Shown here: positions 28,331 through 57,400 of the stretch, piece after piece | Layout of the letters: the number at the start of each line of letters is the position of its first letter | Position numbering within the stretch: the stretch's first letter is position 1 | Assembly (NCBI GenBank): GCA_011503125.2 | Contig: WWBZ02000062.1 | Location: 2,542,001 to 2,606,000 of the forward strand | Reading direction: 5' to 3' | Length of the DNA stretch: 64,000 bases | DNA from: Botryosphaeria dothidea | Taxonomy: Eukaryota > Ascomycota > Dothideomycetes > Botryosphaeriales > Botryosphaeriaceae | Notes under the pieces: model-generated | Told to the model about the DNA's origin: nothing | Databases searched by the model: none | What the model saw: the letters and a program-made list of their open reading frames with translations, nothing else | Position numbers and translations under genes: made by a program

Positions 28331-28808
28331 TGTAACGAGCGGGCCTCTACCTCTAAGGATCTAAACACTAAAGAGGGTGGAAACCTATCGGAGGGTTTTC
28401 CTTGAGTGGGTATAAGAAGAGGTACGTGAGGAACGAGTAGACGACTGAAGACTAAGCACTGCGTGCGAAGGCCTTGTTACCAATAGAGTCTAAATTCTAT
28501 TGTGAAGTTAACCATAAAGGTCAAAGCTATCTAAGGAGTATAGTTTATATATACGTATAAGATTGTCTATAATCTATGTGCTCAGTTAATAGAGCGCGAT
28601 TAGTTAGCCTTGGCAACTGATCGAGGGTTACTAACTAAGCGTACTAGCTTAGTTGGCTCTGTCTGCTTAGTTGGCCTTAGTAACTAAGCGGGTGGGTCCA
28701 ACTAATCGCGAGGGTCACGTGACCTCGGATCCTTATGACTCCGACTTCTGTCGTTCCCTGCGGGGCTGATCCTTAACTTCCTTAACCTGTGGAGGCTACG
28801 CCGTAACA
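28331..28808 (-). repeat. Gypsy-C 3' LTR (type X)
   Basis: 478 bp, TGTAACG...CGTAACA as read on plus. It contains several aactaagcg/cttagttggc repeats in both orientations and a GGTCACGTGACC palindrome near 28,712–28,723. Directly followed by ctatccccccctt, the complement of the polypurine tract. Less mutated than its partner at 62,838. Confidence 0.92.
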
Positions 28809-28905: not shown

Positions 28906-29736
28906 ATATCTAAACGTAAGCGGGATACTACTAAGGAGCGGCAGCGTTTAGCAGATCTAGTAGAGTCTATTCCTTTACCCGCCGAACGTTCCTATTTTAA
29001 ATGCGAGTTGTATAGCGTGGTTTGCAAGGTTCTACTAGGTCGTACTCGTTATAGTACTTATCTTGCGAAGGGGTTTACGATATGCGATACGAGGGGTTTA
29101 TCGCTTGCTAGAGGTGAGTCTTAATTCCTTCCTCTATCCGTGTGTATTAACTACTACCCTAGCTCGTAACCTTCGTCGTAAGTAGGAGAAGTTGAAGGCT
29201 AAGGAGGCCGAGGCTTATAAGAAGTTCCTTACTTCTCTAGCCGAGCTAGATCGGTTATAGAAGAAGCGGGCCCGTTTGCACGCTAAGCAAGAGAGGGCTC
29301 GCTTAGCTTATAAAGAGAGCCTACGCCGTTAAGAGAAAGAGCTTAGAACTATTACGGCTCGTCTAAAGCGTTTACGAGATAACTAACGTTTATTAGAGAA
29401 GAGAGGTTTCCGGGCCCTTCTTACTAAGTCCGATAATCTTAATACGTTAGATAAGTATAATCGTCGGGAGGCGGAGGAGCTGCTAGCTGCGTTGGCCGAG
29501 GATAAGGGGTACGCTCCTAACCCTAAGAATTCTAAGGGTCCGTCCGCGTTAAAACGGCCACGTTACGAGACGGTGGGTCTTGCTACGCCGTATATAGCTA
29601 AGTCTACCGAGTCTACCGGCGAGCCTATAGCTAGTACGAAGTCTCTATACTCTCCTAAGCCTATAAATTCTACCCGTTTATCTCCCTATCTTAAGGGTCT
29701 CCCGCCGTTCTCGTTCGGGGACGGCCTCGTTTCCGT
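28906..29736 (+). pseudogene. Accessory antisense gene of Gypsy-C: Zn-cluster/coiled-coil protein, RIP-damaged and cut by Gypsy-D
   Basis: Lies on the strand opposite to gag-pol, between pol and the 3' LTR. Exon 1 (28,906–29,113, 208 nt) aligns with exon 1 of the Gypsy-D copy, which is also 208 nt after removal of its inserted LTR. The start codon reads ATA, and several cluster Cys codons read Tyr or other residues (TG-to-TA changes). An intron (29,114–29,162, GTGAGT...CCCTAG) follows at the same site as in the D copy. Exon 2 encodes the charged coil (EKLKAKEAEAYKKFL) and a Ser/Pro-rich tail (SPYLKGLPPFSFGDGLVSVG) and ends where Gypsy-D is inserted (TSD aggag 29,737–29,741); about 12 codons of C-terminus lie beyond 54,453. 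Confidence 0.75.
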
Positions 29737-29741
29737 AGGAG

Positions 29742-30202
29742 TGTTACGACACAGCCTTCTCAGGTCAGAGAATTACGGATCAACTCCGACGAAACAGCGA
29801 GAAGTCGGAAGTCTCACAGAACCGAGGTCACGAGATCACGGATTCTACCACGTGAGTTGTCACGTGCGACCCACCTGTGCCCTCAATAAACGGCACACCA
29901 ACGCGTGCCCTCAAGTAACGGCACGCTCAGCGATGCCCTCAAAAGACGGCACCACCAGATTGTACACACTCTCCATAGTATATATAGCTTCACTCCCTAG
30001 CTAGTATTTGACCCTCCGTAGTCAACTTTACAATAGAATTTAGACTCTATTAGTAACAAGGCCTTCGCACGCAGTACTCAGTCTTTAGTCGTCTACTCGT
30101 TTCTCACGTACCTCTTCTTGTACCCACTCAAGGAAAACCCTTCGACAGGTTTCCACCCTCTTTAGTGTTTGGATCCTTAGAGGTAGAGGCCCGCTCGTTA
30201 CA
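29742..30202 (+). repeat. Gypsy-D 5' LTR (type Y)
   Basis: 461 bp, TGTTACGACACAG...CTCGTTACA. Its first 240 bp are almost free of RIP changes and carry two CACGTG words (ccacgtgag, tcacgtgcg) and short repeats (accaacgcgtgccctcaa, cggcacgctcagcgatgccc). Confidence 0.92.
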
Positions 30203-32274
30203 CTTTAACTACCATCCTTGCAAGGAGAGGGACCTTTTTAGAAACGAGTTTATTAGGTTAAGTATTACCCCGCCTAACGCGTTTAGGGAAAGTATATAAT
30301 AGCACCGGGATCTCAGATGGATGTCGACCTAATAGAGGGCCGCGCTAAGGGTGCTTAGGGGCGTGCTCCGCCCGCGTAGCAAATAGAGCCTACTCGAGAA
30401 GAACTCTAGGCACTTGTTTAGGAATAAAAAGCCTAGATCGAGCGCCTGCTGGCGCACTAGATAAAACGGAGCGCTACTAAGGTTAAAGTAGCGGTACCCG
30501 AGAAGTTCGATAGGGATAGGAAGAAGCTCTAATCCTTTCTACTCTAGATGCAACGCTACCTCTAGTTTAACTAAGTATAATTCGATAACGACGCCAAGGA
30601 AGTACTCTTCGTATTAACCTACCTTAGAGGAACGGCAGAGGTATAGATAGAACTATACCTTCGCGACTACCTAGCTAACGAATACTCTCTCGAGAAGAGA
30701 CGGGTAAAGACTAAGGAAATCTTCGACACCTATACGGGATTCGCAGATAACCTTAGGGCTACTTTTAACGATCGGGACGAAGTCCGTAAAGCCTCTAACG
30801 ATATTATAACCGTTAGATAGATAGGATCTATAGCTATCTACGTAACTAAGTTTTAGTAGCTAGTAGCCTACCTCGAATGGTTAGACGAGACTTTCCGCGA
30901 CCTCTTCTATAAGGGCCTAAAGAACGAAGTTAAGAAGAATATAATTACTTACGAATACCTATCTACCTTCTAGAAGATAGTAGACCTTACGTCTTAGATC
31001 GACGGTCGTATATACGAATAGAAGATAGGTTCTCGATAATCTAATACTTCGAAGCTACGCCGTAAAAGAATAACCCTCGAAGGCGGAGACGCTATAGCCC
31101 TCGACGCGGCTAATAGATAGGATTCTAAAAAGGGCAATAATGGTTATAATAATAAGAAGCCTAAGGGACCTAACCCGAACTAGACGGATAAGTAGAAATA
31201 GCGCTATAAGAATCGACTCTGCATTACCTACGGTAGTAATAAATACTTCTCTCCTAAGTGTCCGTAGAACCCTCGTAGTAAGAAGGATAATAAGTAGACT
31301 TCGAGCGCTTAGCGTAAAGCGTCGGTTGCATCTCGCTAAGACAACTACGATACGCTATACTAGACAGCCTATTACGATAACGGCTATTAGACGCATTAAA
31401 CCAGCAAGGATATCTCTAGATAGTACCCCCACGAACCTCGAAACTTCGGTATAATAACTAGGAACGAAGAAGTTATCGAAACCGACGATATTATCGATAG
31501 TTTCCCTCTTGACGACGAACTTATTAACAGCGAAATAGGAGAACTATACGAGAGTACTAGTAAAACGTAGTTAGATAATACACCTATACTATCGGATAAG
31601 CTAGACACCCTCGTCTCGCTAGAAATTCTCGCTAAAAGATACGGTATTAGCAACTATCTACGGGACGAATAGGGTAATCTTAGCTAAATAATCTAGATTC
31701 CGCATTAGAAAAGCATCGCGCTTACGGTTATTTGGGGATGGCGTTAGAATATCCTTTAGGAAACCCGAATCGAATAAGACGGAAAGAAGTACGAACTCCT
31801 AGTAACTAAAGAAACGATACTCGTCGAACGCTACTACTAAGGAACCTTAGTACGCGAGTAAGTAGACTACGACTCCCTCCGGGAGCTAGCACGGATTCTC
31901 TACTAGTACGGCACGGCAACGATCTAGTATCGTACACTCTAGTAGATTCCGGACAAGAAGCTTAATCGACTAATCTTTAGATATTAGGTTCGAAAGGATA
32001 AAGTCTATTGGCGAAGGAAGCAGAACGCCGACAAATAGACTAACTAGAAGCAAGTATACCTTTAAGTTAACGAATAGGAAGACTATATACACAGCGAAAT
32101 CTACGGCTACCCTATACTAAAAAACTAGACGGCCCTACGGCAACGGGACTAACCTAGGGGCTATAGTCTAGGTCCCTTTATATAGTATTACGCACATCGG
32201 AAACGGAAACTCTTACCGGACCAAATCTATAGAAATAGTTCAAGACATAGGGAATACTTAACGGAGTACCTACT

Positions 32275-32513
32275 TGTTAGACTTTCTTGCCTTACTACCT
32301 TAGGCATCTTAGTTATCTCGAATGTTCTATCCTTTATATAATAATACTCTTTAATGCCCAACCCCGCATCGGTACTCTCTCTCGGATCTTTAGTATCCTC
32401 GGTTATATAGTCATTACTCGTGTATATAAGCAAGTCTACCGACCTCCCTCTTAGGAGACAGGCAGAATCTACTCTCTTTTCTAACCTCATACTCTTTACT
32501 CTCAAATCCAATA
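32275..32513 (+). repeat. Copia-2 5' LTR
   Basis: 239 bp, TGTTAGAC...CCAATA (the last CA mutated to TA). Same length as the right LTR and as the solo LTR at 53,472. Confidence 0.92.
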
Positions 32514-32527
32514 GTTATAAGCCCGGG
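32514..32527 (+). promoter_or_regulatory. Primer-binding site of Copia-2
   Basis: gttataagcccggg follows the LTR directly and equals the Copia-1 site with one TG-to-TA change. It is complementary to the anticodon region of initiator tRNA-Met, as in half-tRNA-primed copia elements. Confidence 0.6.
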
Positions 32528-32746
32528 GGACGCTACGGCTAGACGCTAAGACTACCCCACTTCTTAGCTCTTTACTAATTAACTCTTCTACTTAACTAAG
32601 TACTCTTTACTAACACGCAACTACTATTATCTACGGCTTCTGCCCGGTTATAGGCTACGGCGACTAAACTAACAACTTAACACGGAGCCACACTAGCTAC
32701 TACCTCTACTCGAATCCAACTAGACTAATAACAACTTACTAATAAC

Positions 32747-35700
32747 ATGGGAGACTCTACTAAATCCCACATACTTACTAAGTCTTCGGACTGGAACTAC
32801 TAGTTATTCCTAGTAAAAGGAAGAGCCTAGAACACTAATATCTGGAGCCTCGTTAATCCTTTACTAACAACTAAACCTTAGGGTACAACTAAATCTAAGA
32901 AACTAATAATTTAAGGCATAGTTACTGCTGATAAGAAGCTTACTTATAACTATAAGATAAGCAACTACCGCGCTAACTACGCACTCTACGAAAAATAATA
33001 AAAGGCACTTGCTAATCTTGCAACCTATATCCAGGACTTAATCGCTATAAATCTGCTCCCGTATATTAGCAACACGGATTCGGATAATCATCCTTAGACC
33101 TATCTGACAACGCTTAAAGCTAAACTTGCACTAACTAACGAAGCTATAGATCTAGAACTCGAATAGCAGTACAATTAGCTCAAGCGAGGTCTATCTAACT
33201 AGAATATTAAGAAATAGCTTTAATCTTAGGAAGAGGTCTACACTAAAGCTAAGCAACGCGACTTACTACAAGTTAAAGACGACCGACTAGTTAGAGACTT
33301 TCTCCTCTCCCTTCGAGGAATCGATTCCACCTACTCTTAGATGGAACTATACCTTCTACGAGGCCAAGAAACTAAGCTAACCCTTTATAAAGCTGTTAAA
33401 GACTACAGGCAACACCTACGCATCGAGAATCTCAAGAAACCATCCAAATCCTCGAAGCACTCAGCCTTCCCGGCCACTTTCAAGGGCAAGGAACAGGAAA
33501 ATAACGAAAAGCCACCTTGTATCTATAGACTCAATCACTAGTATAAGGACTGTTTCTACCTAAACGAGGACATACGGCCTAAGCACTAGACACTAAACAA
33601 GGCTACTTAAACACGTATCAACGAGAAACTTAAGAATCTAAAAATTAAGGCACGAATCGACTATGCACTAAATCGAGAAAAGGAAAGATAACTTAGTTCT
33701 CTATCCACTACAAACACGACTACAACTCTAACACCTAACGTTTAAAGCAAATCACCTTTAATCGAAGTCGCCTTATTCTCTATTATTAGCCACTCTATAA
33801 GGAGAGCTAATACCTCTCTTTAGTTATCCTAGATTCTCGACTCTAGAATAGATCATCATATCTATAACCGATCTATATAGGATAGATTCAAACAAACCAG
33901 AGCTGCTGAACTAGACGAATACCTCACCTATAGAGAAATAACTACACTAATCACTGCGTATAGAACAGTTACTATTAACGTCAAGACACCATCTAGTAAA
34001 GGCTATATTACTCTCCAAGATGTTGCAATGTCTCCATCTTTTATAGCTAATCTTATATCGCTTAACAAAGCTCTTAAAGTAGGAATCGACTAGAACCCAA
34101 GGACTGGAACTCTAAGCAAGAATAATCAAACTCTCTGCTTCACTAAACGATATAACGGATATTTCTACCTTAAACGCAACACAGCACCGCTCTAAGCTCA
34201 CTCTTTACTTCTCGCAACTCAACCAACTACTTTCGTAACCAAAGCCGCACATATTACCAACTAGCACCGTATCCTTGGCCACGCTAGCCAGGAAACTCTT
34301 CAACATCTTAAAGAATCCACCGAAGGAACACAAATTACTCCATTACCATCTAAACAACCACTCCAGTACTGCGAAACCTATACACTATTAAAGGCACACA
34401 GGATCGTCTCTCGATCTTCAGATAAAGAAGAAGAACCAACTAAGCCTTTCTCACGCGTTATATTCGATCTTCTCCAGCTTATACCAGCTTATAACGGAGA
34501 TAAATAGACAGCTCATCTTGCTTACTTATCATCAAACTTCATCCTCCCATTTACATACAGGCACAAATCAAACACAGCGGAACTTGCCATCTATAGACTC
34601 AAAATTATTAAGATCCGCTACCAGGGCAAGGTTATCTTCTTTAGAACTAATAGAGAAACTACACTCGGAAATACCTTCCTCTCCTATCTCATGGATTATA
34701 GAATTACCCTTGAAACCTTAGCTCCTGCAACACCCGAGCAAAACGGACACTCTAAACGCTCAGGGAGTGTACTTCTTATTAGGGCACGAGCCATGCGAAT
34801 TGGCGCGAACCTTCCAGAACGACTATGGCCTAAAACCATCCGAGCCGCTGCCTATATCCACAATAGGACTCCACTCAAGAAACTCGGCTGGATCACACCT
34901 TTTGAAAGAGTCACTGGCAATAGACTAAATCTCTCGCATCTTAAAGCCTACGGATGCAAAGCCTACTCTCTACGTAAAGATCTTCCACGTACTTATAAGC
35001 TTGCTAAACGAGCATTTATCGGATATCTTATTGGGTACGACTCGACTAACATCTTCCGCATCTAGATCCCAAGCCAGGATAAAGTAATACGGACTAGAGA
35101 CGTCACGTTTAATAAAAATAGCTTCTTCGACCTATCAGAGACTAATATTAGTAAAGCCCTTAGAAAGGAGATAATTGAAACTCTCAATACTCCTGCTCTG
35201 CTATTAATCTATGGTCTCATACCTTAGGAAGAACCTAAATCCTCTACCCTCAATCAATATAATTAGACGACAAACTAATAATCTTAAGCTAAGAAAGACC
35301 CATCAACTCAAACGTTACCTACACCCTCAAAATCAGTAGAACCTAAAGTAGGACCTCTCGAATTAGAAGAAGAACAAGAATAAGAATAAGAACAAGAACA
35401 AGAGCAAGAGCAAACTAAACAACGACTTGGACCTCTACTCCCTGCTTAATATAACACTCTACCGCAACCAGGCGCTGCTCCCGGCAATAGAGCACCACGA
35501 GGAGCAGATATCTTAGCTATATTCACTAAAGAAACTATCATTCCAGAAAACAGCTCACGGAGTTCTCGAAATCAAAATCTAAACTATAGCAATAACCCTT
35601 TTAGAAAGCTACGAAAACCACGAAAAGAAGTATATACTGCAACACTTACTCAAGCTCAAGAACAACTAAAATCGACTTTCTACAACGCGTTCTCAGCTAC

Positions 35701-37333
35701 AATTAATACTCTAAAACCTAAGTCTAAAGTTTATCGAGACAATCTTCTACTAGAGCTAAAGACCTTCGAGGAACTCCTCAATTATCTATTTAAGGACGAT
35801 TTTTTAGCCTTACTCCTTAAGGAAATCAAGAAACTTAAGCAAATTTAGACCTGGATAGAAGTCCCTGTTACACAAGCACACAAGGCAAAGAAACGGATTA
35901 TTCTACTTACCTAGGTATTTAAGTACAAGTTTAACGAAGAAGGATACCTTATTAAGTTCAAAGCTCGACTCTATGTTAGAGGAGACCTTCAATCAACTGC
36001 TTAGGATACCTACGCTGCCACGCTTGCTGCACGAATCTTTAGAGGACTTATAGCAATTATAACTGCTTTCGACCTTGAATTAAGGCAGTACGACGTTATT
36101 AATACATATCCACACGTCCTAATTGATGAGGAAACATACTATAAACCACCACCAGGCATGAACATCAAGGACGGACTCGTTCTCCTACTCCTACGAGCAC
36201 TATATAGACTTAAATAATTACCAGCTCTCTAGTAAAAGCACTTATTAAAAATACTTCAAAATCTCGGCCTTACTGAAGTGCCAGAAGCTCCTTGCCTATT
36301 TATAAACGAACATATAGTCCTATTCTTCTTCGTGGATGATATCGTTATCATCTACCATAGGGATCACACTGCTTATATCGATAAATTCTAACGAAAACTC
36401 TTCGAAATCTACGAGATTCGATACCTTGGCGAACTCCAATGGTTTCTAGTAATCAGAATCATCCGAAACAGAGACGAGCGCAAACTCTAGCTATGCCAAG
36501 ACTCCTACATCGCCAAACTCGCTACGAAATTCAACGTTAAAGAGGACTCGAAGCGCTTAGTTCCTCTCCCTCCTAATAAACCTATTACTCAGAATCCCGA
36601 TAAAGCTACGGATTAAGACATATACGCTTTTCAGCAGAAAGTCGGATCAATCAACTACGCTGCAGTCTATACCAGACCAGATATTGTACACGCAGCATTA
36701 CGACTCTCTGAACACTTACAGAATCCTTCAGCTCAGCACCTTCATCTAGCTCAACGAGTTCTTAAATATCTATCATACACTCGAAGCTACGCTCTCACTT
36801 TCTTAGGCTTCACTCAGTCAACCAAAGATCTCTTTATTGCCTCCAGCGATGCCTCCTTTGCTTCGGATATCGACACAAGAAAGAGTGTTCAAGGCTTTCT
36901 TTTTCGACTCTTTAGAGGAGCTATCGACTGGAAAGTAGCCAAACAACGTACTATTACGACCAGCAGTACTAAAGCCGAATTACTCGCGCTCTCAACCACC
37001 GCTAAGGAAACTATATAGTAGGAAAACCTCTTCAAAGCAATCGACTTCTCGACTGGACATCAGACGAAGATCCAGTGTAATAACACTCAGACAATTCGCC
37101 TGCTTGACGAAGAGACCTATAAGCTTATTACGAAACTTCGTCATATTTAAATTCACAGCCACTGGCTACGCCAGGAAGTACAAGAAGGCAACATCTCAAT
37201 TTCCTGGACTCCTACTGCAGAAACAATTGCAGATAGACTTACGAAACCTCTTAACAAATAGAAACATTAATACTTTCTTCAACAGATTAGACTCGAAGAC
37301 ATCACTACCAAATTGCAAGACAACTAACTACTC
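32747..37333 (+). pseudogene. Copia-2 gag-pol polyprotein, nonsense-broken
   Basis: The frame from ATG 32747 (MGDSTKSHILTKSSDWN) is shared by all recognisable domains: Gag (LLSLRGIDSTYS, PPCIYRLNH), protease region (ILDSRIDHHIYNRS), integrase (HRILGHASQETLQHL, FDLLQLIPAYNGD, FFRTNRETTLGN, ATPEQNGHSKRSG), a Glu/Gln-rich spacer near 35,380, RT (TWVFKYKF-type block, LRQYDVINTYPHVLID, ILFFFVDDIVII near 36,330) and RNase H (IASSDASFASDIDTRKSVQGF, shortened here). Many TAG/TAA codons and lost catalytic residues; the 3' end is approximate. Confidence 0.85.
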
Positions 37334-37407
37334 TGCTCAATTTCTCACGCTCAATACTACTTTTACTATCACGACCCTCCTAATACGTACACGTCGTAAA
37401 GGAGGTG

Positions 37408-37646
37408 TGTTAGACTTTCTTGCCTTACTACCTCAGGCATCTTAGTTATCTCGAATATTCTATCCTTTATACAACAACACTCTTTAATACCTAATCCCGC
37501 ATCGGCACTCTCTCTCGGATCTTTAGTATCCTCGGTTATATAGTCATCACTCGTGTATATAAGCAAGTCTACCGACCTCCCTCTTAGGAGACAGGCAGAA
37601 TCTACTCTCTTTTCTAACCTCACACTCTTTACTCTTAAATCCAACA
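37408..37646 (+). repeat. Copia-2 3' LTR
   Basis: 239 bp, TGTTAGACTTTC...ATCCAACA. The left LTR carries TA at several sites where this copy keeps CA, and the reverse, so both copies were mutated independently. Confidence 0.92.
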
Positions 37647-40600
37647 CTACTAGAATCCTAATCGATATAGGATTAAGCGGAAATTTTATCTACAACGAGC
37701 TTGTATAAAAGATAAATATCCCGTACCGTAAGAAATAGGAACTATATCCCCTTAGTAGATTCGACGGATCCTAGGCAGCCTACGGAGAAGGCTAGGTAAA
37801 GATAGAAACGGAGGAAGCAACCCTCTAGATAGGGAACTATTAGGAACGGATTTCCCTCGACGTCTAACGTATTCCCGGGCACGATATTATTCTAGGTATA
37901 CCCTAGATCCGGATATAGAAACCTATCTTCGACTTCGGAGAAGGAGACTCTATTATCTTTCGAGAGGAGCTCGAGGACCTCCTACGAAAATAAGGATTAT
38001 AGAAGAAGAATAGGTTATTAGATACCCTTCGAAAACTTCTATCGATATTAATACGGAAAGTAGCTAGTATAAGGCCTAAATATAGTAACTATATAGGCGA
38101 CTCCGATAGTAGTATAAGTTAGTACTAGGATTACGACGTAAGTAGCGAAGCCTCCTTAGTAAAATATAGCCCTATTATAGGAATAAGCCCTACTAAGCGA
38201 AACGATACCCCCGACTTAAGCTACGACTCTAGCTACGATAGCGTAAGGCCTAGTAACGGTAGTATTAACGGTAATAATAGCGTAAGACCTAGTAACGGTA
38301 GTATTAACGGTAATCTTAAGAAAAGCGTAAGATAGGACTAGAATAGTAGCGTACGAGACGCCGCCTCCTCGGTAAAATATAGCACCTTAAGCGGAGTAAG
38401 ACTAACCGAGTCTAGTATTCCTAACGAATAAGTATAGTATACGTTACGAAGGACTACGAGGAAAAGGTATAAGGCTAAGAGTAAGGCTTCGCGTAAGCAA
38501 TTAGCAGCCGTAAATCCTTAGATTAACGTCTAGATAATCTTAGAAGAGGCATTTAAGCGTATAAGACGCCAAGGCTAGCAGGTCTACCTTATATATATTA
38601 AACCCTTATAGGTAGTATAATAGAGAGTACTAGCTAAGGCCGTACGGGAAAGGCTTAAGAATAAGGATAGTTCTACTCCTATTAGAGGAGACGATCCCGC
38701 GAAGATTAGAAGAGGATAACACGGTAGTTTAGAGATATAGAATAATCTATACGGAGAACCTCTAATACTAGAAATAGAAACGGTACCTAGCGAGTACTAG
38801 GACTTAAAAGCCGTTTGCTAAGAAAGAGGAAAAGAAGATTTACCGAAGTATTAACTATAGGACTACGAGATTCTACTTAAGCCGGGCACGAAGCTAGCTT
38901 ATAAGCCTATCTACTTCTTATTAGCAAAGGAAATAGAGGCTTTAAGAGAATACATCGAGAAGAATCTCGAACGTAGATATATTCGGCCTTTAACGTTATT
39001 AGCCGGATATCCGATTCTTTTCGTCCTAAAGAAGAATAGTAAACTACGCCTCTATATCGACTACCGACAACTTAACGATATTACGATTAAAAACCGCTAC
39101 CCGCTCCTACGTATCGATAAGCTCTAGAATAAGTTAGGGAAAGTAAAGTACTTTACGAAGCTAGACCTCCGGGAAGAATACTATCTAGTTAGAATTAAAG
39201 AAGGGAAAGAATAGAAGATAGCCTTTAGAACGAGGCTAGGACTCTACGAGTATACGGTTATACTATTCGGGCTTACTAACGCGCTAGCAACCTTCTAAAA
39301 TCTCGTTAACGATACGCTACGCGAATACTTAAATATCTTCTACTTAGCTTACCTCGACGATATCCTTATCTTTTTAAAAACTCTCGAGGATTATAAGAAG
39401 TATATTAGAAAGGTTCTAGAAGCCCTCTAGGCAAAGAATCTATCTATTATACCCGAGAAATACGAATAGCACGTTTAAAGAATAGAATTCTTAGACTTTA
39501 TTATCATCCTAGGTTACGTCGGTATAGACGACTCGAAACTAGATTCTATTAGAGAATAGCTAGTACCTAAGACGATTAAGGAAGTTTAGTCTTTCCTTAG
39601 ATTCGCGAACTTCTACCGAAAGTTTATTTAGAACTACTTAAAGGTTACGGAACCTTTAACGCGACTTACTTAAAAGGAGTAGGGCTTTAAATAAAGAGAC
39701 GATTAGTAGTAAGCCTTCGAATCGCTTAAACGCATATTTTACGAAGTACCGGTTCTAGGGATATACGATCCCGATAAACCTATCGAAGTAGAAACTAATA
39801 CGTTAGAATTCGCTCTCGGAGTATATCTTAGCTAGCCGGATAATTAAGGTAGATAGCACCTAATCGCGTTTTACTCTAGAAAGTTTATACCGGCAGAGCT
39901 TAACTATAATACTTATAATAAGGAGCTCTTAGCTATCGTCTTAGTATTTAAGTAATAGAGATACTATCTTAAAGGAGCTAGCTATTAGATAGTAGTATAT
40001 TACGATTATTAGAATCTTACGCGCTTTACTATAACTAAGGAGCTAAACCGACGGTAGGTTCGCTAGTTAGAAGAAATAGTCTTCTACGATTTTAAGATTA
40101 TATATAGAAAAGATATAGATAACGCCGCCGCTAACGCGCTTAGTAGAAGGATAGACTATATAGAAGAACGAATTAAGCCGTATTCTATAGTGTTCGTAGT
40201 AGATAGCGATAGATCGCTTACTCTTACTAGACCGTCTTTTCTAATACTTCGTATTAAGTTAAACCTATAGCATCTAAAGATCCGAGAAGTATACGTATAG
40301 AACTCCTTCGCGTAGGAACTTTTAGCGCTCGAGAACGACCCGCGTATTACTCGAGATAGGAAAGGAACGCTTCTCTTTAAAGAATTAATCTATATCCCGG
40401 TAAGACTGCGAGAAGCACTAGTTAAGAATATATACGAAGCACCCGCGTATAGATATTAGGGTATCGATAGAATAACCGAAAGAATTATACGAAACTTCTA
40501 CTTCCTAGGATTACGAAAGATAGTCTAGCGTATAGTCTCGTAATATAACCTTTATATTAGAAGTAAAGCTACGATACACGCTTCGTACGGATAACTATAA

Positions 40601-41646
40601 CCCCTAGAAGTTCTAGAACGACTATAGTAATTAGTTACGCTAGACTTTATTACGAAGCTACTATAGTCGAAGGACTCGCTTACCGGAGTTAAGTACGACT
40701 CGATCTTAGTCTTTATCGATAGACTTACGAAGTATACTTACTTCTTACCCTACCTCGAGGCATCGAATATAGAATAGCTAGCTTATACGTTCCTCCGATA
40801 TATCTTCGCGGATTACGGAATACCGGAAGAACTAGTTTCGGATAGGAATAAGCTAATATATTCTAAATTTTAGTAAACGCTTATGCGTTAACTTAGAGCT
40901 AAGAATAAACTCTCTATAACTATATACCCGTAAACGAATAGTTAGATAGAACGGATAAACCGGACTCTCGAATAATATCTCCGCTATTTCGTTAACTACC
41001 TATAGGACGATTAGGCTATATAGCTATCTATAGTATAGTTCGCCTATAATAGCGCTAAATAAGAGTTAACTAACGTATCCCCGTTCTTTACTAACTATAG
41101 ATTCGAACTAGACGCGTATAGAGAAGCTATTCTAAGTCGAAAATTAGCTTAGTAAGGTATTCTTAAAGCCGACTAGCTAAAAGAACTATATAAAGCTATT
41201 AGTCTCGACCTCGAGCACGTACGAATTATAATATCTAAGTACTATAATAGACGGTACTAGGCGGTACTAAACCTAAAGAGGGGGGATAAAGTATACCTCC
41301 TTATAAAAAATATTAAATCGAAGCGACTAAGCGATAAATTAGATTTTAAGAAAACCGGTCTATTCGAAATTGCAGAAAAACTCGGAAACGTTACGTATCG
41401 ACTTAAATTACTAATAACGATACGGATAAATTCTATCTTTTACGTAGTATTGCTCGAGCTAGTACTAGAAAACGCTATAATCCTAGAAACTCTAGAAGAG
41501 ATAATTCTAGAAAATCTAGATACTAAAGAAGACGAATACCTAGTCGAGAAGATCTTAGACTATAAAAGATTCGGATATTAGCTTAAATATCTTATTAAAT
41601 AGAAAGGATACGGAAATAAGAATAACTAATAGGTACCTAAGGACGA

Positions 41647-42125
41647 TGTTACGGCGTAGCCTCTATAGGTTAAGAAAGTTAGAGATTAGCCCCGCCGGAA
41701 TAATAGAAGTCGGGGTTATAAAGATCCGAGGTTACGTAACCTCGCGCTTAACTAGACCTACCCGCTTAGATTACTAAGGCTGCCTAAGCGGGCCCTACCT
41801 ACTAAGCTATTCTACTTAGTTATAATAGCTCGCTTAGAAGACTACGCGCTATTAAGCGTAACCCGCCTATTAAGTATATAGATTATATAGAACTCTCCTA
41901 CGTATATATAAACTATACTCCTTAGATAGCTTTAACCTTCGTAGTTAACTTTATAATAGAATTTAGACTCTATTAGTAATACGGCCTTCGCACGCAGTAC
42001 TTAGTCTCTAGTCGTCTACTCGTTTCTTACGTACCTCTTCTTATACCTACTTAAGAAAAACCCTTCGATAGGTTTCTACCCTCTTTAGTATTTAGATCCT
42101 TAGAGGTAGAGGCCCGCTCGTTATA
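41647..42125 (+). repeat. Gypsy-B 5' LTR (type X), heavily RIP-mutated
   Basis: 479 bp. Compared with the right LTR, almost every difference I see is CA-to-TA or TG-to-TA. The 18-bp palindrome is here CGAGGTTACGTAACCTCG (41,727–41,744), i.e. both strands mutated symmetrically. Confidence 0.92.
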
Positions 42126-51410: not shown

Positions 51411-52180
51411 TCACAGAATTCTACCGTTAAAATCCTAACCTCCCACGGAAACGAGGTCGTCCCCGAACGAGAACGGCGGGAAACCCGCGAGATAGGGAGA
51501 CAAACGAGCGGAATTCACAAGGTCAGGAGAACGCGGAGACTTCGCGTCAGCCATAGGCTCGCCGGCAGACTCGGTAGACTTAGCCACCTGCGGCGCAGCA
51601 GGACCCACCGTCTCGTAACGTGGCCGCTTTAACGCGGACGGACCCTCAGAATTTTCAGGGTCAGGAAGGCCCCCAGACGAGCTAGAAGCCTCAGCCCTCT
51701 TAAGCTCCTCCAGCGTCTCGAAACCCTCACGAATTATACGAGAACGACGCTCCTTTAAGAAACGCTGCTGTTTACGAAGGCGCTCTAGCTTGGCGGTTAC
51801 CAGCTAAAGAGCAGTAAAGGTCGCGCTCTCCTCCGCCTCCAAACGCGCCTGCGCCTAATTAAGCTTATCTACTAGAAAGGGTTAGTAAGGATAGACGGAG
51901 ACAGCGTAGAAGAAACCCACAACCTAAGTTGCTTGTCTTAGCAACATTACACTCTCCTCGACGAGCCTTAAGACAGGCCGCACACACCTACGGGTTATCC
52001 GGCAACGCGATGCACTCAGAACTACGCTCTAAGCAGGGAGTACAGGGAATCATCTTAACCCCGTTTAAGAGGATGTCCCGGAGTTATCGTTTACGAGAAA
52101 GAGTAGAACGATGCTACTTAGCAGGACGAGGAACGTCTTCGCCACCATCAGGACAAGCGCGCTTTAGAGTTATCACGGAA
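51411..52180 (-). pseudogene. Accessory antisense gene of Gypsy-B: Zn-cluster/coiled-coil protein, variant form
   Basis: Opposite strand to pol. The cysteine cluster (about 51,949–52,044) reads CTPCLERSSEC ... CAACLKARRGEC, spacing C-x2-C-x6-C-x9-C-x2-C-x7-C, within the Zn(II)2Cys6 range. Before it lies a basic segment (RSTLSRKR, then LRDILLNGVK). After ECNVAK an intron is likely (branch CTTACTAACC, acceptor TTTCTAG), then a charged coil (RLEAEE..., KLERLRKQQRFLKERRSR) and a tail nearly identical to the D copy (SEGPSALKRPRYETVGPAAP, FSFGDDLVSVGG). TGA at 51,411–51,413. In-frame TAG/TAA codons sit at Gln positions. The N-terminus differs strongly from the C and D copies while the tail is shared. 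The start is not resolved. Confidence 0.7.
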
Positions 52181-52275
52181 AGACTTACGGAGAGAAAGTA
52201 AGCCAGGAAGAACCCACAAGGAAATAGGCAATACGGAAGAATCTTCGGGCCGAAGATCCTTAAGGGGGGGGATAG

Positions 52276-52754
52276 TATTACGGCGCAGCCTCCATAGGTT
52301 AAGGAAGTTAGGAATCAGCCCCGCCGGAACAACAGAAGTCGGGGTTATAAAGATCCGAGGTCACGTGACCTCGCGCTCAACTAGACCCACCCGCTCAGAT
52401 TGCCAAGGCTGCCTAAGCGGGCCCCACCTACTAAGCCATCCTGCTCAGTTACAATAGCTCGCTCAGAAGACTACGCGCCATTGAGCGCAACCCGCCTATT
52501 AAGCACATAGATTGTATAGAACTCTCCTACGTATATATAAACCACACTCCTTAGATAGCTTTGACCTTCGTGGTCAACTTCACAATAGAATTTGGACTCT
52601 ATTGGTAACACGGCCTTCGCACGCAGTGCTCAGTCTCTAGTCGTCTACTCGTTCCTCACGTACCTCTTCTTGTACCCACTCAAGGAAAACCCTTCGACAG
52701 GTTTCCACCCTCTTTGGTGTTTGGATCCTTAGAGGTAGAGGCCCGCTCGTTACA
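52276..52754 (+). repeat. Gypsy-B 3' LTR (type X), lightly mutated
   Basis: 479 bp beginning TATTACGG (TG mutated) and ending CTCGTTACA. Retains most CA/TG sites and the intact palindrome at 52,356–52,373. Confidence 0.92.
52356..52373. promoter_or_regulatory. 18-bp perfect palindrome with CACGTG core in type X LTR
   Basis: CGAGGTCACGTGACCTCG. The 12-bp core GGTCACGTGACC recurs in both Gypsy-C LTRs (28,712–28,723 and 63,220–63,231). CACGTG is the binding core of fungal bHLH factors such as Cbf1; a role in LTR transcription is inference. Confidence 0.5.
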
Positions 52755-52776
52755 GACGATATATATCCAGATCTCG

Positions 52777-53894
52777 TCACAGAATTCCACCGTCAAAATC
52801 CTGACCTCCCACGGAAACGAGGCCGTCCCCGAACGAGAACGGCGGGAGACCCTCAAGATAGGGAGATAAACGGGCAGAATTCACAGGCTCAGGAGAGCAT
52901 AGAGACTTCGCACTAGCCATAGGCTCGCCGGCAGACTCGGTAGACTCAGCCACATGCGGCGCAGCAAGACCCACCGTCTCGTGACGTGGCCGTTTTGACG
53001 CGGACGGACCCTCAGAATTCTCAGGGTCAGGAGCGTACCCCTCATCCTCGGCCAGCGCAGCCAGCAACTCCTCCGCTTCCCGACGATCATGCTCATCCAA
53101 CGCGGCCAAACTACCAGACTCAGCAAGAAGAGCCTTGTAACCACGCTCCTCTAACAAACGCTGGTTAGCCCGTAACCGTTTCAAACGAGCAGCAACAGTC
53201 CCTAGCTCTTTCTCCTGGCATCGCAGGACCTCCTTATGACGACGATGCATCTCCTCTTGCTCCCGCTGTAAGCGCACTCGCTCTTCCTCCTGAATAGCAC
53301 GGAGCCTATTAAGATCAGCCAGAGAAGCCAGAAACTTCTCTTGAGCCTCGGCCTCCTTAGCCTTTAACTTCTCCTGCTCGCGGCGAAGACTTAAGGCTAG
53401 AAAACGTAAGCAAGCATCCCGGACAGAAGAAAGACCACCTACCTCTAGAAAGCGATATCTTCTTCGTATTATGTTGGATTTGAGAGTAAAGAGTGTGAGG
53501 TCAGAAAAGAGAGTAGATTCTGCCTGTCTCCTGAGAGGGAGGTCGGTAGACTTGCTTATATACACGAGTGATGACTACATAACCGAGGATACTAAAGATC
53601 CGAGAGAGAGTGCCGATGCGGGGTTGGGCATCAAAGAGTGTTGTTGTATAAAGGATAGAACATTCGAGATAACTGAGATGCCTGAGGTAGTAAGGCAAGA
53701 AAGTCTGACATATTACATATCGTAGTACCCTTCGCAATACAAGCACCACAACGATCGTGTTCCGGAGCAACCTTACACGGCCTACCGTTTAGTTTACAAT
53801 TAAAGCAGGGACGAATCGCGGGAAAGGAAATAGACTCCACGAGGGCCGCTAAACGACGTCGTTCCTCCGTAGTATCCCGCTTACGTTTAGACAT
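52777..53894 (-). pseudogene. Accessory antisense gene of Gypsy-D: Zn(II)2Cys6-like plus coiled-coil protein, best-preserved copy
   Basis: Encoded against gag-pol. ATG at 53,894; exon 1 (53,894 to 53,443, interrupted by the solo LTR) starts MSKRKRDTTEERRRLAALVE and holds CFNCKLNGRPC ... CGACIAKGTTIC, spacing C-x2-C-x6-C-x8-C-x2-C-x7-C (residues 30–60, 53,715–53,807). A 46-nt intron (53,397–53,442, GTAGGT...TTCTAG) precedes exon 2 (52,777–53,396), which has no stops: a Glu/Lys/Arg/Leu-rich coil of about 100 aa, then a Ser/Pro/Glu-rich tail and FSFGDGLVSVGG. Without the LTR and one TSD copy the parts join in frame to about 275 aa. The cluster spacing is that of GAL4-type domains; DNA binding and a role in regulating the element are inference. 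The 3' end overlaps the tail of pol. Confidence 0.8.
53472..53710 (-). repeat. Solo LTR of Copia-2 family in the Gypsy-D accessory gene
   Basis: 239 bp, reverse complement of the Copia-2 LTR, with a perfect TSD tatta (53,467–53,471 and 53,711–53,715). It carries few RIP changes and is one codon after the last cluster Cys codon of the accessory gene. A solo LTR arises by recombination between the two LTRs of a full element. Confidence 0.93.
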
Positions 53895-53992
53895 AATGGA
53901 CTTACGGAGAGAAAGTAAGCCAGGAAGAACCCACAAGGAAATAGGCAATACGGAAGAATCTTCGGGCCGAAGATCCTTAAGGGGGGGGATAG

Positions 53993-54453
53993 TGTTACGG
54001 CACAGCCTTCTCAGGTCAGAGAATTACGGATCAACTCCGACGAAACAGCGAGAAGTCGGAAGTCTTACAGAACCGAGGTCACGAGATCACGGATTCTACC
54101 ACGTGAGTTATCACGTGCGACCCACCTATGCCCTTAATAAACGGTATACTAACGCGTGCCCTTAAGTAACGGCACGCTTAGCGATGCCCTTAAAAGACGG
54201 TACTACTAGATTATATATACTCTCTATAGTATATATAGCTTTACTCTCTAGCTAGTATTTAACCCTCCGTAGTTAACTTTATAATAGAATTTAGACTCTA
54301 TTAGTAATAAGGCCTTCGCACGTAGTACTTAGTCTTTAGTCGTCTACTCGTTTCTTACGTACCTCTTCTTATACCTACTTAAGAAAAACCCTTCGATAGG
54401 TTTCTATCCTCTTTAGTATTTAGATTCTTAGAGGTAGAGGCCCGCTCGTTATA
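53993..54453 (+). repeat. Gypsy-D 3' LTR (type Y)
   Basis: 461 bp, aligned without gaps to the left LTR over the part I compared. The first roughly 120 bp are nearly unmutated; after about 54,115 nearly all CA and TG sites have become TA. Preceded by the purine tract aaggggggggatag. Confidence 0.92.
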
Positions 54454-57400
54454 AGGAGGTTAGGATTTTAACGGTAGAATTCTATAACGAGATCTAGATA
54501 TATATCGTCCTTAGATATCTATTAGTTATCCTTATTTCCGTATCCTTCCTATTTAATAAGATATTTAAGCTAATATCTAAATCTTTTATAGTCTAAGATC
54601 TTCTCGACTAGGTATTCGTCTTCTTCGGCATCTAGGTTTTCTAGAATTATCTCCTCTAGAGTTTCTAGAATTATAGCGTTTTCTAGTACTAGCTCGAGTA
54701 ATACTACGTAAAAGGTAGAATTTATTTATATCGTTGTTAGCAATTTAAGTCGATACGTAACGTTTCCGAGTTTTTCTAAAATTTCGAATAAACCGGTTTT
54801 CTTAAAATCTAATTTATCGCTTAGTCGCTTCGATTTAATATTTTTTATAAGGAGGTATACTTTATCCCCCCTCTTAAGGTTTAGTGCCGCCTAGTACCGT
54901 CTATTATAATATTTAGATATTATAATTCGTACGTGCTCGAGGTTAAGACTAATAGCTTTATATAGTTCTTTTAGCTAGTCGGCTTTAAGAATACCTTACT
55001 AGGCTAATTTTCGACTTAGAATAGCTTCTCTATACGCGTCTAGTTCGAATCTATAGTTAGTAAAGAACGGGGATACGTTAGTTAACTCTTATTTAGCGCT
55101 ATTATAGGCGAACTATACTATAGATAGCTATATAGCCTAATCGTCCTATAGGTAGTTAACGAAATAGCGGAGATATTATTCGAGAGTCCGGTTTATCTAT
55201 TCTATCTAACCGTCCGTTTACGGGTATACGGTTATAGAGAGTTTATTCTTAGCCCTAAGTTAGCGTATAAGCGTTTACTAGAATTTAGAACGTATTAGCT
55301 TATCTCTATCCGAAACTAATTCTTCCGGTATTCTATAATTCGTAAAGATATATCGGAGGAACGTATAGGCTAACTATTCTATATTTAATACCTTAAGGTA
55401 GAGTAAGAAGTAAGCGTACTTCGTAAGTCTATCGATAAAGACTAGGATTAAGTCGTACTTAACTCCGGTAAGCGAATCTTTAGACTATAGTAGCTTCGTA
55501 ATAAAGTCTAGCGTAACTAATTACTATAGTCGTTCTAGAACTTCTAGGAGTTATAGCTATCCGTACGGAGTATATATCGCGGCTTTACTTCTAATATAAA
55601 GGTTATATTACGAGACTATACGCTAGACTATCTTCCGTAACCCTAGAAAGTAGAAGTTTTATATAATCCTTTCGGTTATCCTATCGATGCCCTAATATCT
55701 ATACGCGGGTACTTCGTATATATTCTTAACTAGTACTTCTCGTAGTCTTACCGGGATATAGATTAATTCTTTAAAGAGAAGCGTTCCTTCCCTATCTCGA
55801 GTAATACGCGGGTCGTTCTTAAGCGCTAAAAGTTCCTACGCGAAGAAGTCCTATACGTATACTTCTCGAATCTTTAGATACTATAGGTTTAACTCGATAC
55901 GAAGTATTAGAAAAGACGGTCTAGTAAGGATAAGCGATTTATCGCTATCTACTACGAATACTACGGGATACGGCTCGATTCGTTCTTCTATATAGTCTAC
56001 TCTTCTACTAAGCGCGTTAGCGGCGGCGTTATCTATATCTTTTCTATATATAATCTTAAAATCGTAGGAGGCTATTTCTTTAAACTAGCGAACTTATCGT
56101 CGGTTTAGCTCCTTAGTCGTAGTAAAGCGCGTAAGATTTTAATAATCGTAATATACTACTACCTAATAGCTGGCTCCTTTAAGATAGTATCTCTATTACT
56201 TAAATACTAAGACGATGGCTAAGAGCTTCTTATTATAAGTATTATAGTTAAGTTCTACCGGTATAAACTTTCTAGAGTAAAACGCGATTAGATACTATCT
56301 ACCTTAATCGTTAGGCTAGCTAAGATATACTCCGAGGGCGAATTCTAACGTATTAGTTTCTACTTTAATAGGTTTATCGGAATCGTATATTCCTAGAACC
56401 GGTGCTTCGTAAAACATCCGTTTAAGCGATTCGAAGGCTTATTACTAATCGTCTTCCTATTTAAAGCTATACTCCTTTCGGGTAAGTCGCGTTAAAGATT
56501 TCGTAACCTTTAAATAGTTCTAAATAAACTTTCGGTAGAAGTTCGCGAATCTAAGAAAGGACTAAACTTCCTTAATTATCTTAGGTACTAGCTATTCTCT
56601 AATAGAATCTAGTTTCGAGTCGTCTATACCGACGTAACCTAGGGTAATAATAAAGCCTAAGAATTCTATCCTTTAAACGTGCTATTCGTATTTCTCGAGT
56701 ACGATAGATAGATTCTTTGCCTAGAGGGCTTCTAGAACTTTTCTAATATACTTCTTATAATCCTCGAGAGTTTCTAAAAAGATAAGAATATTATCGAGGT
56801 AAGCTAAGTAGAAGATATTTAAGTATTCGCGTAGCGTATTGTTAACGAGATTTTAGAAGATTACTAGCGCGTTAGTAAGCCCGAAGGGTATAACCGTATA
56901 CTCGTAGAGTTCTAGCCTCGTTCTAAAGGCTATCTTCTATTCTTCCCCTTCTTTAATCCTAACTAGATAATATCCTTCCTAGAGATCTAGCTTCGTAAAG
57001 TACTTTACCTTCCCTAACTTATTCTAGAGCTTATTAATACGTAGGAGCGGATAGCGGTTTTTAATCGTAATATTATTAAGTTATCGGTAGTCGATATAGA
57101 GGCGTAGTTTACTATTCTTCTTTAGAACGAAAAAAATCGGATATCCGGCTAATAACGTTAAAGGCCGAATATATCTACGTTCGAGGTTCTTCTTAATATA
57201 TTCCCTTAAAGCCTCTATTTCCTTTACTAATAAGGAGTAGATAGGCTTATAAGCTAGCTTCGTGCCCGGCTTAAGTAGAATCTCGTAGTTCTATAGTTAA
57301 TACTTCGGTAAATCTCCTTTTTCTCTTTCTTAGTAAACGGCTTTTAAGTCCTAGTACTCGCTAGATACCGTTTCTATTTCCGGTATTAGAGGTTCCCCGT

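Follow-up and report, generated by a model that had tools for sequence, protein, structure and literature searches.

A spliced antisense accessory gene in Botryosphaeria dothidea chromoviruses and its putative exchange with the U3 region

Do Gypsy-type retrotransposons of Botryosphaeria dothidea carry a gene of their own on the strand opposite gag-pol, and if they do, what might its product be for? The window analysed here is a stretch of 64,000 nt (assembly GCA_011503125.2, contig WWBZ02000062.1, positions 2,542,001-2,606,000, forward strand), and all coordinates below refer to it. The initial annotation had described, in three elements called B, C and D, an antisense gene between pol and the 3' LTR whose product would be a GAL4-type DNA-binding dimer. 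Two copies of this gene, C and D, lie within 51411-53894, and both are damaged.

Three damaged copies in the window

The described gene architecture was recovered in all three copies: a six-Cys segment, a short intron of about 46-49 bp, a charged helical region and a common C-terminal tail. Each copy is damaged, B and C by TAG/TAA codons and D by a split. The proposed placement downstream of pol could be seen in copy C only; B and D are 3' fragments, B truncated by an LTR from another element at 29742 and D beginning in the chromodomain tail. The gene of copy B reads on the plus strand because that element is inverted.

Copy C:
51411..51871, minus strand: exon 2 (gene type F5, damaged)
51872..51920, minus strand: intron, GTGGGT...TACTAAC...CTAG, 49 bp
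51921..52173, minus strand: exon 1, C-x2-C-x6-C-x9-C-x2-C-x7-C; 5' limit approximate, internal stop
52241..52257, plus strand: leader palindrome
52276..52754, plus strand: 3' LTR, U3 type a (the U3 of F1)

Copy B:
28331..28806, minus strand: LTR, U3 type c
28906..29113, plus strand: exon 1 (gene type F3, damaged)
29114..29162, plus strand: intron, GTGAGT...CTAG, 49 bp
29163..29741, plus strand: exon 2, ending at the LTR of the other element at 29742

Copy D:
52777..53396, minus strand: exon 2, open frame with the charged helical stretch and the C-terminal tail
53397..53442, minus strand: intron, GTAGGT...CTAG, 46 bp (from the L010 alignment)
53443..53471, minus strand: remainder of exon 1 (from the L010 alignment)
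53472..53710, minus strand: solo Copia LTR within exon 1, target site duplication TATTA on either side
53711..53894, minus strand: first part of exon 1, start codon to just past the sixth Cys codon, 96.7% identical to exon 1 of the undamaged copy L010
53958..53974, plus strand: leader palindrome ATCTTCGGGCCGAAGAT, adjoining the polypurine tract
53993..54455, plus strand: LTR, U3 type d (elsewhere adjoining gene type F8)

A long intron in copy D was considered and rejected, as the interruption combines a short intron with a solo Copia LTR. The solo LTR is 239 bp long, has a perfect 5-bp target duplication and shares 95% identity with each LTR of the Copia element at 32275-37646. Exon 1 of D begins MSKRKRD and holds six Cys, and the first 31 residues of the listed 262-aa open reading frame of this copy are Copia LTR sequence; 83 of 146 genome rows matched only the start of that frame (residues 1-62 at most).

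Undamaged copies on chromovirus pol

The spliced antisense gene is real in these retrotransposons. It is present in near-identical form (99.7-100%) at 20 places in the genome, and undamaged copies such as L010 have a spliced frame without internal stop that encodes a protein of 275 aa. A 1653-aa pol frame is listed at 13 places, which belong to the undamaged family F1, and all of them have the gene about 2.6 kb downstream; this count covers the places with that frame, and searches for the gene or the palindrome supplied the other gene types. The gene also occurs on a second chromovirus family, with a pol 72% identical (L050). A search with exon 1 gave 45 matches at E < 1e-6, and the 46th, at 0.14, led to type F6. 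The initial description of an element-encoded, antisense, spliced gene is borne out, for a long-helix protein, on many copies.

The host elements are chromoviruses, with RVT_1 matches in pol and with reverse transcriptase, integrase and a C-terminal chromodomain; in the partial frame of L010, Integrase_H2C2 and Chromo scored over their cut-offs and rve under its own. The placement strictly between pol and the LTR needs amending for undamaged copies, as the pol frame of L010 covers all of exon 2 and extends into exon 1. The gene is an accessory gene of the chromovirus lineage; it lies at the 3' end, on the strand opposite gag-pol, and is spliced a single time. Its antisense position at the pol-3' LTR end, shared by most copies of the family, also places it with the aORF-3R/brtn type.

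Selection on the antisense frame

Overlap with pol raises an alternative in which the antisense frame is open simply through the pol frame or base composition. Both strands are indeed open in F1 and F6, and in 2000 plain synonymous shuffles of the antisense codons the pol frame stayed open in only 1% (F1) and 0.05% (F6), so the pol frame may be kept as well. This signal for a pol frame held open by selection was lost once codon junctions were preserved, when its openness became ordinary (p 0.12 and 0.155). With the pol protein kept and its codons shuffled, the antisense frame was open in 0 of 2000 shuffles.

Selection was assessed from transversions, which RIP cannot produce, and damaged copies that carry single-base indels, L043 among them, were left out. 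In four pairs among F1-F4, which share branches, the antisense frame gave omega_tv values of 0.17-0.37 for exon 2 and 0.06-0.53 for exon 1; values for the overlapping pol frame were 1.5-2.4. Transversions fell at antisense codon position 3 in 15 of 25 cases between F1 and F2 (p 0.0056), 23 of 43 in exon 2 between F9 and F10 (p 0.0051) and 11 of 18 between F5 and F5b (p 0.014); replacing L035 by L033 in the comparison with F1 gave the same result. The F5-F5b pair showed no significant synonymous excess (p 0.093), and a different sense frame, outside the pol phase, scored lower than the antisense frame (0.24 versus 0.45). Exon indels in the tested contrasts were all multiples of 3, and intron indels were 1-4 nt.

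Judged from these comparisons, the antisense frame is under purifying selection as a protein. The evidence concerns the variable part of the gene, since the last ~80 residues are shared with conserved pol and the two frames are inseparable there. In that variable part, codon positions, indels, shuffles and omega_tv led us to reject a frame open by chance or via pol, and conservation merely through pol or LTR constraint, the objection raised beforehand, was not what F1-F4 displayed. The alternative is largely refuted for this part, and we regard it as highly improbable overall.

The encoded protein

Zn(II)2Cys6 regulators (PF00172) have the spacing C-x2-C-x6-C-x5-12-C-x2-C-x6-8-C, carry a basic stretch between the second and third Cys, and bind DNA targets with CGG triplets. 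That spacing is present in F1, F2, F9 and copy C (F5). F3, F4, F7 and F8, in which some Cys positions are Tyr in the copies seen, and F10, with one stop within the loop, are consistent with the spacing only, and F6 falls outside it with a first loop of 16 residues. The Pfam Zn_clus profile gave partial matches of 11.0 bits for F1 and 10 bits for F9 against a cut-off of 21, and no match for F2, F6 or F7. The loop between Cys 2 and Cys 3 is not basic in type, reading ELNGRP in F1 and RSSNSK in F9. A CGG-type operator in U3 was rejected, as CGG/CCG counts in 10 U3s were not above those of shuffles (p 0.40-0.97). With these profile scores and no CGG/CCG excess in U3, the GAL4-type identity first proposed is unsupported.

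Searches of NCBIfam and PHROGs returned only weak matches, under any cut-off, and a profile search of PDB sequences a single match at E 1.1. An AlphaFold2 model of the window exon 1, built from 2 sequences only, had a pLDDT of 53. Exon 2 of copy D, from a single sequence, was predicted as one helix over residues 2-117, with pLDDT of at least 90 at 84 of 205 residues, mostly among the first 80. The protein has a basic N-terminus, the six-Cys segment and a predicted long helix, and the sixth Cys codon is followed by a candidate intron, after 28 nt in F1-F4 and F7 and after 25 nt in F9.

Gene versions and U3 types

About nine divergent versions of the gene (F1-F5, F7-F10) sit on almost identical integrase-chromodomain DNA, and one further version sits on a divergent pol; F3 and F4 are close to each other. 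The comparison between types spans the integrase onward, with gag and reverse transcriptase covered in F1; for F5b it consisted of 48 bp of integrase plus the pol tail. Relative to L010, transversions per site were 0.001-0.004 in pol (seven types with at least 250 bp comparable), 0.03-0.34 in the antisense gene and 0.11-0.33 in U3. The segment from palindrome through polypurine tract to LTR start had 0 transversions in 54-55 sites in eight types and 1 in 54 in F5b, and R-U5 had 0 in 120 in all six types covered.

Gene version matched U3 type in 27 of 30 rows, a tally that excludes 11 reference rows agreeing by construction and, with the copies being related, serves as no significance test. For each of F6-F9 a single row was typed. 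The three mismatched rows are C, L051 and D. Gene type F5 was seen beside U3 a twice and beside U3 g once, in L052, and U3 type d adjoins an antisense-gene match, judged by position, at 7 places. The 8-bp palindrome adjoining the polypurine tract is constant across versions; the leader palindrome has 64 exact copies in the genome (control 0), 63 of them at most 420 bp from an antisense gene. The gene-U3 pairing and the constant palindrome therefore suggest that gene and U3 behave as an exchangeable module. The palindrome (CGG-N1-CCG) was also considered as a target of the Cys segment, which is possible but unproven: the segment varies while the palindrome is constant, and a shared target is not obviously read by the segment, given that its residues from Cys 2 to Cys 3 are variable.

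Possible function of the gene

Our tentative explanation, which we consider possible rather than probable, is an accessory antisense gene exchanged with U3 whose product is a trans-acting, self-limiting regulator for the matching U3. Recombination in reverse transcription, with strand transfer at R and then a template switch in the pol tail or leader, would exchange gene versions with U3, either jointly in a single block or each on its own at the conserved islands. Antisense transcription would start from the 3' LTR side, and the product, with its basic N-terminus, six-Cys segment and long helix, would form a nuclear dimer that acts in trans on elements carrying the matching U3 and affects their transcription or copying, a self-limiting effect. 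A new gene-plus-U3 pair could then evade the regulators made by resident copies and undergo renewed amplification. The gene-promoter pairing suggests, but does not prove, a self-regulation module, DNA binding and self-regulation by the protein are inferred, and the pairing may reflect mere linkage of neighbours. In lambdoid phage immunity regions, repressor and operator are exchanged as one module, and HTLV-1 HBZ is an antisense regulatory protein expressed from the 3' LTR; the proteins are unrelated to ours, and both serve only as analogies of mechanism. By such analogy, regulator and cognate U3 might be swapped as a unit so that a recombinant evades resident repression as heteroimmune phages do, a stricter version that we find doubtful.

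Versions and U3s might instead have diverged in place through very fast evolution, with no exchange, and F1-F4 are indeed graded relatives in gene and U3 alike. Yet intron and U3 have diverged to the same degree as the exons, and in F2, F3, F4 and F7 the adjoining 1.2-1.4 kb of pol has 1 transversion each; the divergent stretch has sharp edges, and C, L051 and D are mosaics of different types. We consider divergence in place very unlikely. An active antisense RNA, forming dsRNA with the sense transcript that feeds or decoys silencing, would not require the codon-level selection and in-frame indels seen here. Such a role is in keeping with the overlap of gene and pol in F1, with the spliced non-coding antisense transcripts of retrotransposons reported for one fungus in the available text of PMC10648671 and with the dsRNA functions discussed for aORF-3R in that of PMC7264820; we judge it improbable.

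More credible, though still unlikely, is a protein that aids a step of the element life cycle (nuclear entry, packaging or integration), its versions reflecting old divergence or host factors and U3 hitch-hiking. The basic N-terminus and long helix suit a carrier or adaptor no less than a regulator, accessory functions for such genes are proposed in the part of the review available (PMC7264820), and Tnt1, as described in its source, has U3 variability without any gene. This reading leaves unexplained why U3 changes alongside the gene while pol, a likely partner of a life-cycle factor, stays the same.

Relation to known elements

Antisense genes at this position are already known. In the passages available, brtn is the antisense gene of Boty-like retrotransposons of Botrytis cinerea (Zhao et al. 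2011, via PMC7264820, PMC8365987, PMC4227169 and PMC5987419), and a gene of this type is reported in Sclerotinia too (PMC7264820). Like ours, it is an additional gene, antisense and located at the pol-3' LTR end, in an ascomycete Gypsy element whose gag-pol has a CHROMO domain; those passages, compared by description and not by sequence, make no mention of a Cys cluster, an intron, pol overlap or U3 exchange. The plant aORF-3R genes (Grande gene23, RIRE2 and Retand TRP28 ORFs; PMC7264820, PMC11963269) are likewise antisense, in the same place and in most copies, and the available descriptions suggest DNA binding or nuclear location and propose a regulatory role. They differ in encoding other proteins, in their plant hosts and in their long pol-3' LTR regions, and TRP28 (PF04195) was absent among the Pfam matches of our antisense proteins. 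What antisense accessory genes do in LTR retrotransposons is still described as an open question (PMC7264820, available part).

Exchange with U3 has partial parallels. The Tnt1 superfamily combines a conserved coding part with distinct U3 versions and modular evolution, but the available text describes no accessory gene moving with U3 (PMC1838419). Ty1 self-restriction and DRT2 resemble our proposal in principle, as element-derived, subfamily-linked restriction of retromobility, but act through a particle-associated capsid fragment and not an antisense Cys-segment gene, as far as the accessible account goes (PMC10951436). Our literature search, which covered titles and abstract openings and left subscription papers mostly outside, found no retrotransposon with an accessory gene exchanged with U3, which is no proof of absence. 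One genome here offers about nine natural gene versions and their U3s on near-constant pol, plus mismatched recombinants, a resource that makes the cognate-U3 specificity of each protein directly testable. If each protein does act on its own U3 only, retrotransposon copy-number control and bursts would follow a phage-like immunity logic. As a minor observation from the available literature, a Monilinia transcript resembles both pol and BRTN.

Structure of the antisense gene

Three damaged chromovirus copies in the window carry the antisense gene, in a 51.7 Mb genome in which transposons with RIP-like damage are numerous:

Copy C: 3' end of one chromovirus, 3' LTR at 52276-52754; antisense gene present
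Copy D: 52755-54455, 3' fragment of another chromovirus; antisense gene present
Copy B: inverted 3' fragment; antisense gene cut at 29742 by the LTR of another element

Exon 1 of copy D is interrupted by a 239 bp solo Copia LTR with the duplication TATTA, and the first 31 residues of its listed 262-aa frame are Copia sequence. A genome search with this frame returned 146 rows, 83 of which matched the Copia-derived start alone (residues 1-62 at most), and the remaining 63 (62 places) were the antisense gene or its tail. The 83 partial rows show that LTR pieces of the Copia family at 32275-37646, an element with both LTRs inside a RIP-damaged Gypsy pol, are common genome-wide. The stretch 29742-42123 is not one simple insertion, since its LTRs at 29742 and 41647 have U3 types d and a, respectively, and the latter interrupts pol within the chromodomain.

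Undamaged copies of type F1, one of the versions (F1-F10 and F5b) of the gene, provided its structure. Sequences 99.7-100% identical to the F1 reference, locus L010, were found at 20 places (21 loci, two being one place), two of them broken by one TAG (L028) or an indel (L036). The 1653-aa pol frame is listed at 13 places, with the antisense gene ~2.6 kb downstream at all 13. The spliced F1 product has 275 aa: its basic N-terminus MSKRKRD is followed by the segment CFDCELNGRPCKVAPEHDRCGACIAKGTTMC, then by a long charged helix and finally by a tail; the 47 bp intron falls between the segment and the helix. The initial annotation had placed the gene between pol and the 3' LTR, but the pol frame continues from the chromodomain across all of exon 2 and stops within exon 1 (L010:2270), showing that pol and the antisense gene instead overlap.

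In F1 and in F9 (197 aa) the spliced frame is open throughout, and stops are present in the F2, F3, F4 and F7 copies read. In F1-F4 and F7 the best candidate intron lies 28 nt past the sixth Cys codon, and in F9 it lies 25 nt past it; no good one was found in F6 or F10. Just upstream of the F1 start codon, the antisense strand carries a splice-donor-like GTAAGT (53895-53910), also seen at the corresponding place in the F2-F5, F7 and F8 leaders read, a possible donor for an intron in the 5'UTR or for a variant without the Cys segment. The F1 copies (20 places, e.g. 34499-35370 on the contig containing the window) are almost identical and nearly RIP-free despite their number and the heavy damage of their relatives, suggesting that they spread recently in a burst, possibly without passing through sexual cycles.

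The antisense frame is coding

Transversions were counted because RIP yields transitions only, and the frames are distinguishable because antisense position 3 in exon 2 is pol position 2, with exon 1 in another phase. Exon transversions fell at antisense position 3 in 15/25 cases for F1-F2 (p 0.0056), 28/53 for F1-F3 (p 0.0027), 26/54 for F1-F4 (p 0.017), 27/50 for F2-F3 (p 0.0021), 26/49 for F2-F4 (p 0.0034) and 4/7 for F3-F4 (p 0.17). Contrasts on other branches gave 23/43 in exon 2 (p 0.0051) and 10/18 in the Cys region (p 0.043) for F9-F10, and 11/18 for F5-F5b (p 0.014). For four F1-F4 pairs, omega computed from transversions in the antisense frame ranged over 0.17-0.37 for exon 2 and 0.06-0.53 for exon 1, compared to 1.5-2.4 in the pol frame; F9-F10 gave 0.35 and 0.26 compared to 2.84 in the pol phase. 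F5-F5b gave 0.45 compared to 0.88 in the pol phase, yet a third frame was lower still at 0.24, and the excess of synonymous changes in this contrast was non-significant (p 0.093). Exon indels in the contrasts tested were 12, 12, 12, 3, 42, 15 and 21, and intron indels 1-4. The last ~80 antisense residues, common with conserved pol sequence, carry no information in this test; the results show that the antisense gene is coding. Selection to keep the pol frame open appeared suggestive in a plain codon shuffle (1% and 0.05% of shuffles stop-free), a signal that disappeared when codon junctions were preserved (p 0.12 and 0.155).

Gene and U3 vary on a near-constant pol

Type representatives aligned to L010 had almost no transversions from integrase to chromodomain (F2, 1/1239 bp; F3, 1/1362; F4, 1/1168; F7, 1/1268; F8, 2/755; F9, 1/252; F10, 1/287). 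For F5 and F5b, 79 and 48 bp alone were comparable there, plus a 243 bp tail with 3 transversions each. In copy C, which carries gene F5, 6 transversions were counted over 1369 bp of integrase, and less clean copies have 14 (L043, partly at a small-indel cluster) and 176 (L045, alignable to L010 from position 1026 onward only). For the same representatives, transversions per site amounted to 0.03-0.34 for the antisense gene, 0.02-0.29 for the outer leader and 0.11-0.33 for U3. The divergence profile along L010 changes abruptly near 1740-1800 and, within the LTR, near 2820, with F9 and F10 diverging from directly after the chromodomain. Constant islands remain at the palindrome, polypurine tract and LTR start (0/54-55 transversions in eight types, 1/54 in F5b) and at R-U5 (0/120 in the six types covered).

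Gene and U3 were typed in 41 distinct rows, two being second views of the same places, with identical copies collapsed, F3 and F4 treated as one U3 class, and 11 rows serving as references that agree by construction. Types matched in 27 of the 30 non-reference rows (F1, F2, F3/F4, F5b, F10); the three mismatches were copy C and L051 (gene F5, U3 a) and copy D (gene F1, U3 d). Of three F5 copies listed, two have U3 a and the third (L052) has its own U3 g. L054 is the sole F8 copy read, and by position U3 d adjoins an antisense-gene match at 7 places. This pairing is suggestive only, because neighbors are linked in any case and the copies cannot be counted as independent.

Exact matches to the palindrome ATCTTCGGGCCGAAGAT, which sits between the polypurine tract and the antisense start codon, number 64 genome-wide, compared to 0 for the reversed pattern. 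Sixty-one lie no more than 420 bp from a previously listed match to the antisense gene, two more adjoin the gene in L057 and L059 (loci chosen via the palindrome), and one is 740 bp off. The palindrome is identical in 9 of 10 type representatives, including F6, with one change in L054. A CACGTG box at position ~86-101 is kept in the U3s of 8 of 10 types (L010, L035, L038, L039, L052, L048, L055 and L058; 0.01-0.07 expected in each) although these U3s otherwise diverge, and may be recognized by a host bHLH factor.

A proposed element-encoded regulator

A coding gene at this location, its many versions, their mostly matched pairing with U3s and the constant islands are best read as an element-encoded trans-acting regulator that would be exchanged with its own U3. 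The gene would be transcribed from the 3' LTR side, its product would form a nuclear dimer affecting the cognate U3, and the exchange would occur by template switching. Rival explanations are that the antisense protein is a life-cycle factor, or that the effect is exerted by RNA.

The initial annotation had proposed a GAL4-type protein. The Cys spacing in most types is indeed that of Zn(II)2Cys6, but the Pfam Zn_clus profile, with a cut-off of 21 bits, scores 10-11, F1 is without the basic loop, and CGG/CCG is not in excess in the U3s; thus the protein may act like a DNA-binding dimer, with membership of the Zn(II)2Cys6 family putative. Three protein searches of its own genome, in which not all of the weakest matches were looked at individually, revealed no stand-alone host relative.

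Excerpts of published accounts describe antisense genes at the same place as in the B. dothidea elements, namely the brtn gene of Boty, known from Botrytis and Sclerotinia, and the aORF-3R genes of plants (PMC7264820; PMC8365987; PMC11963269), as well as U3 modularity in Tnt1 (PMC1838419) and element-derived restriction in Ty1/DRT2 (PMC10951436). No case of an antisense gene and U3 being exchanged while pol stays constant appeared in the titles and abstract openings of the literature searched.

A second chromovirus family

F6 is the exception among types, with 0.161 transversions per site in pol relative to L010. Its protein, in a two-sequence alignment run without the low-complexity filter, is 26% identical to that of F1 across 269 aa (E 4e-8), and a genome search with the F6 protein found F5 copies down to E 1e-12 and F1 copies at 0.006 at best. 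In pol, the F1 and F6 tails can be aligned across their first 86 residues (E 5e-4). Locus L050 (C1:3341200-3344700) belongs to a second chromovirus family, with pol 72% identical and a related antisense gene that has no clear intron and a first Cys loop of 16 residues; its pol reading frame shifts just before the chromodomain.
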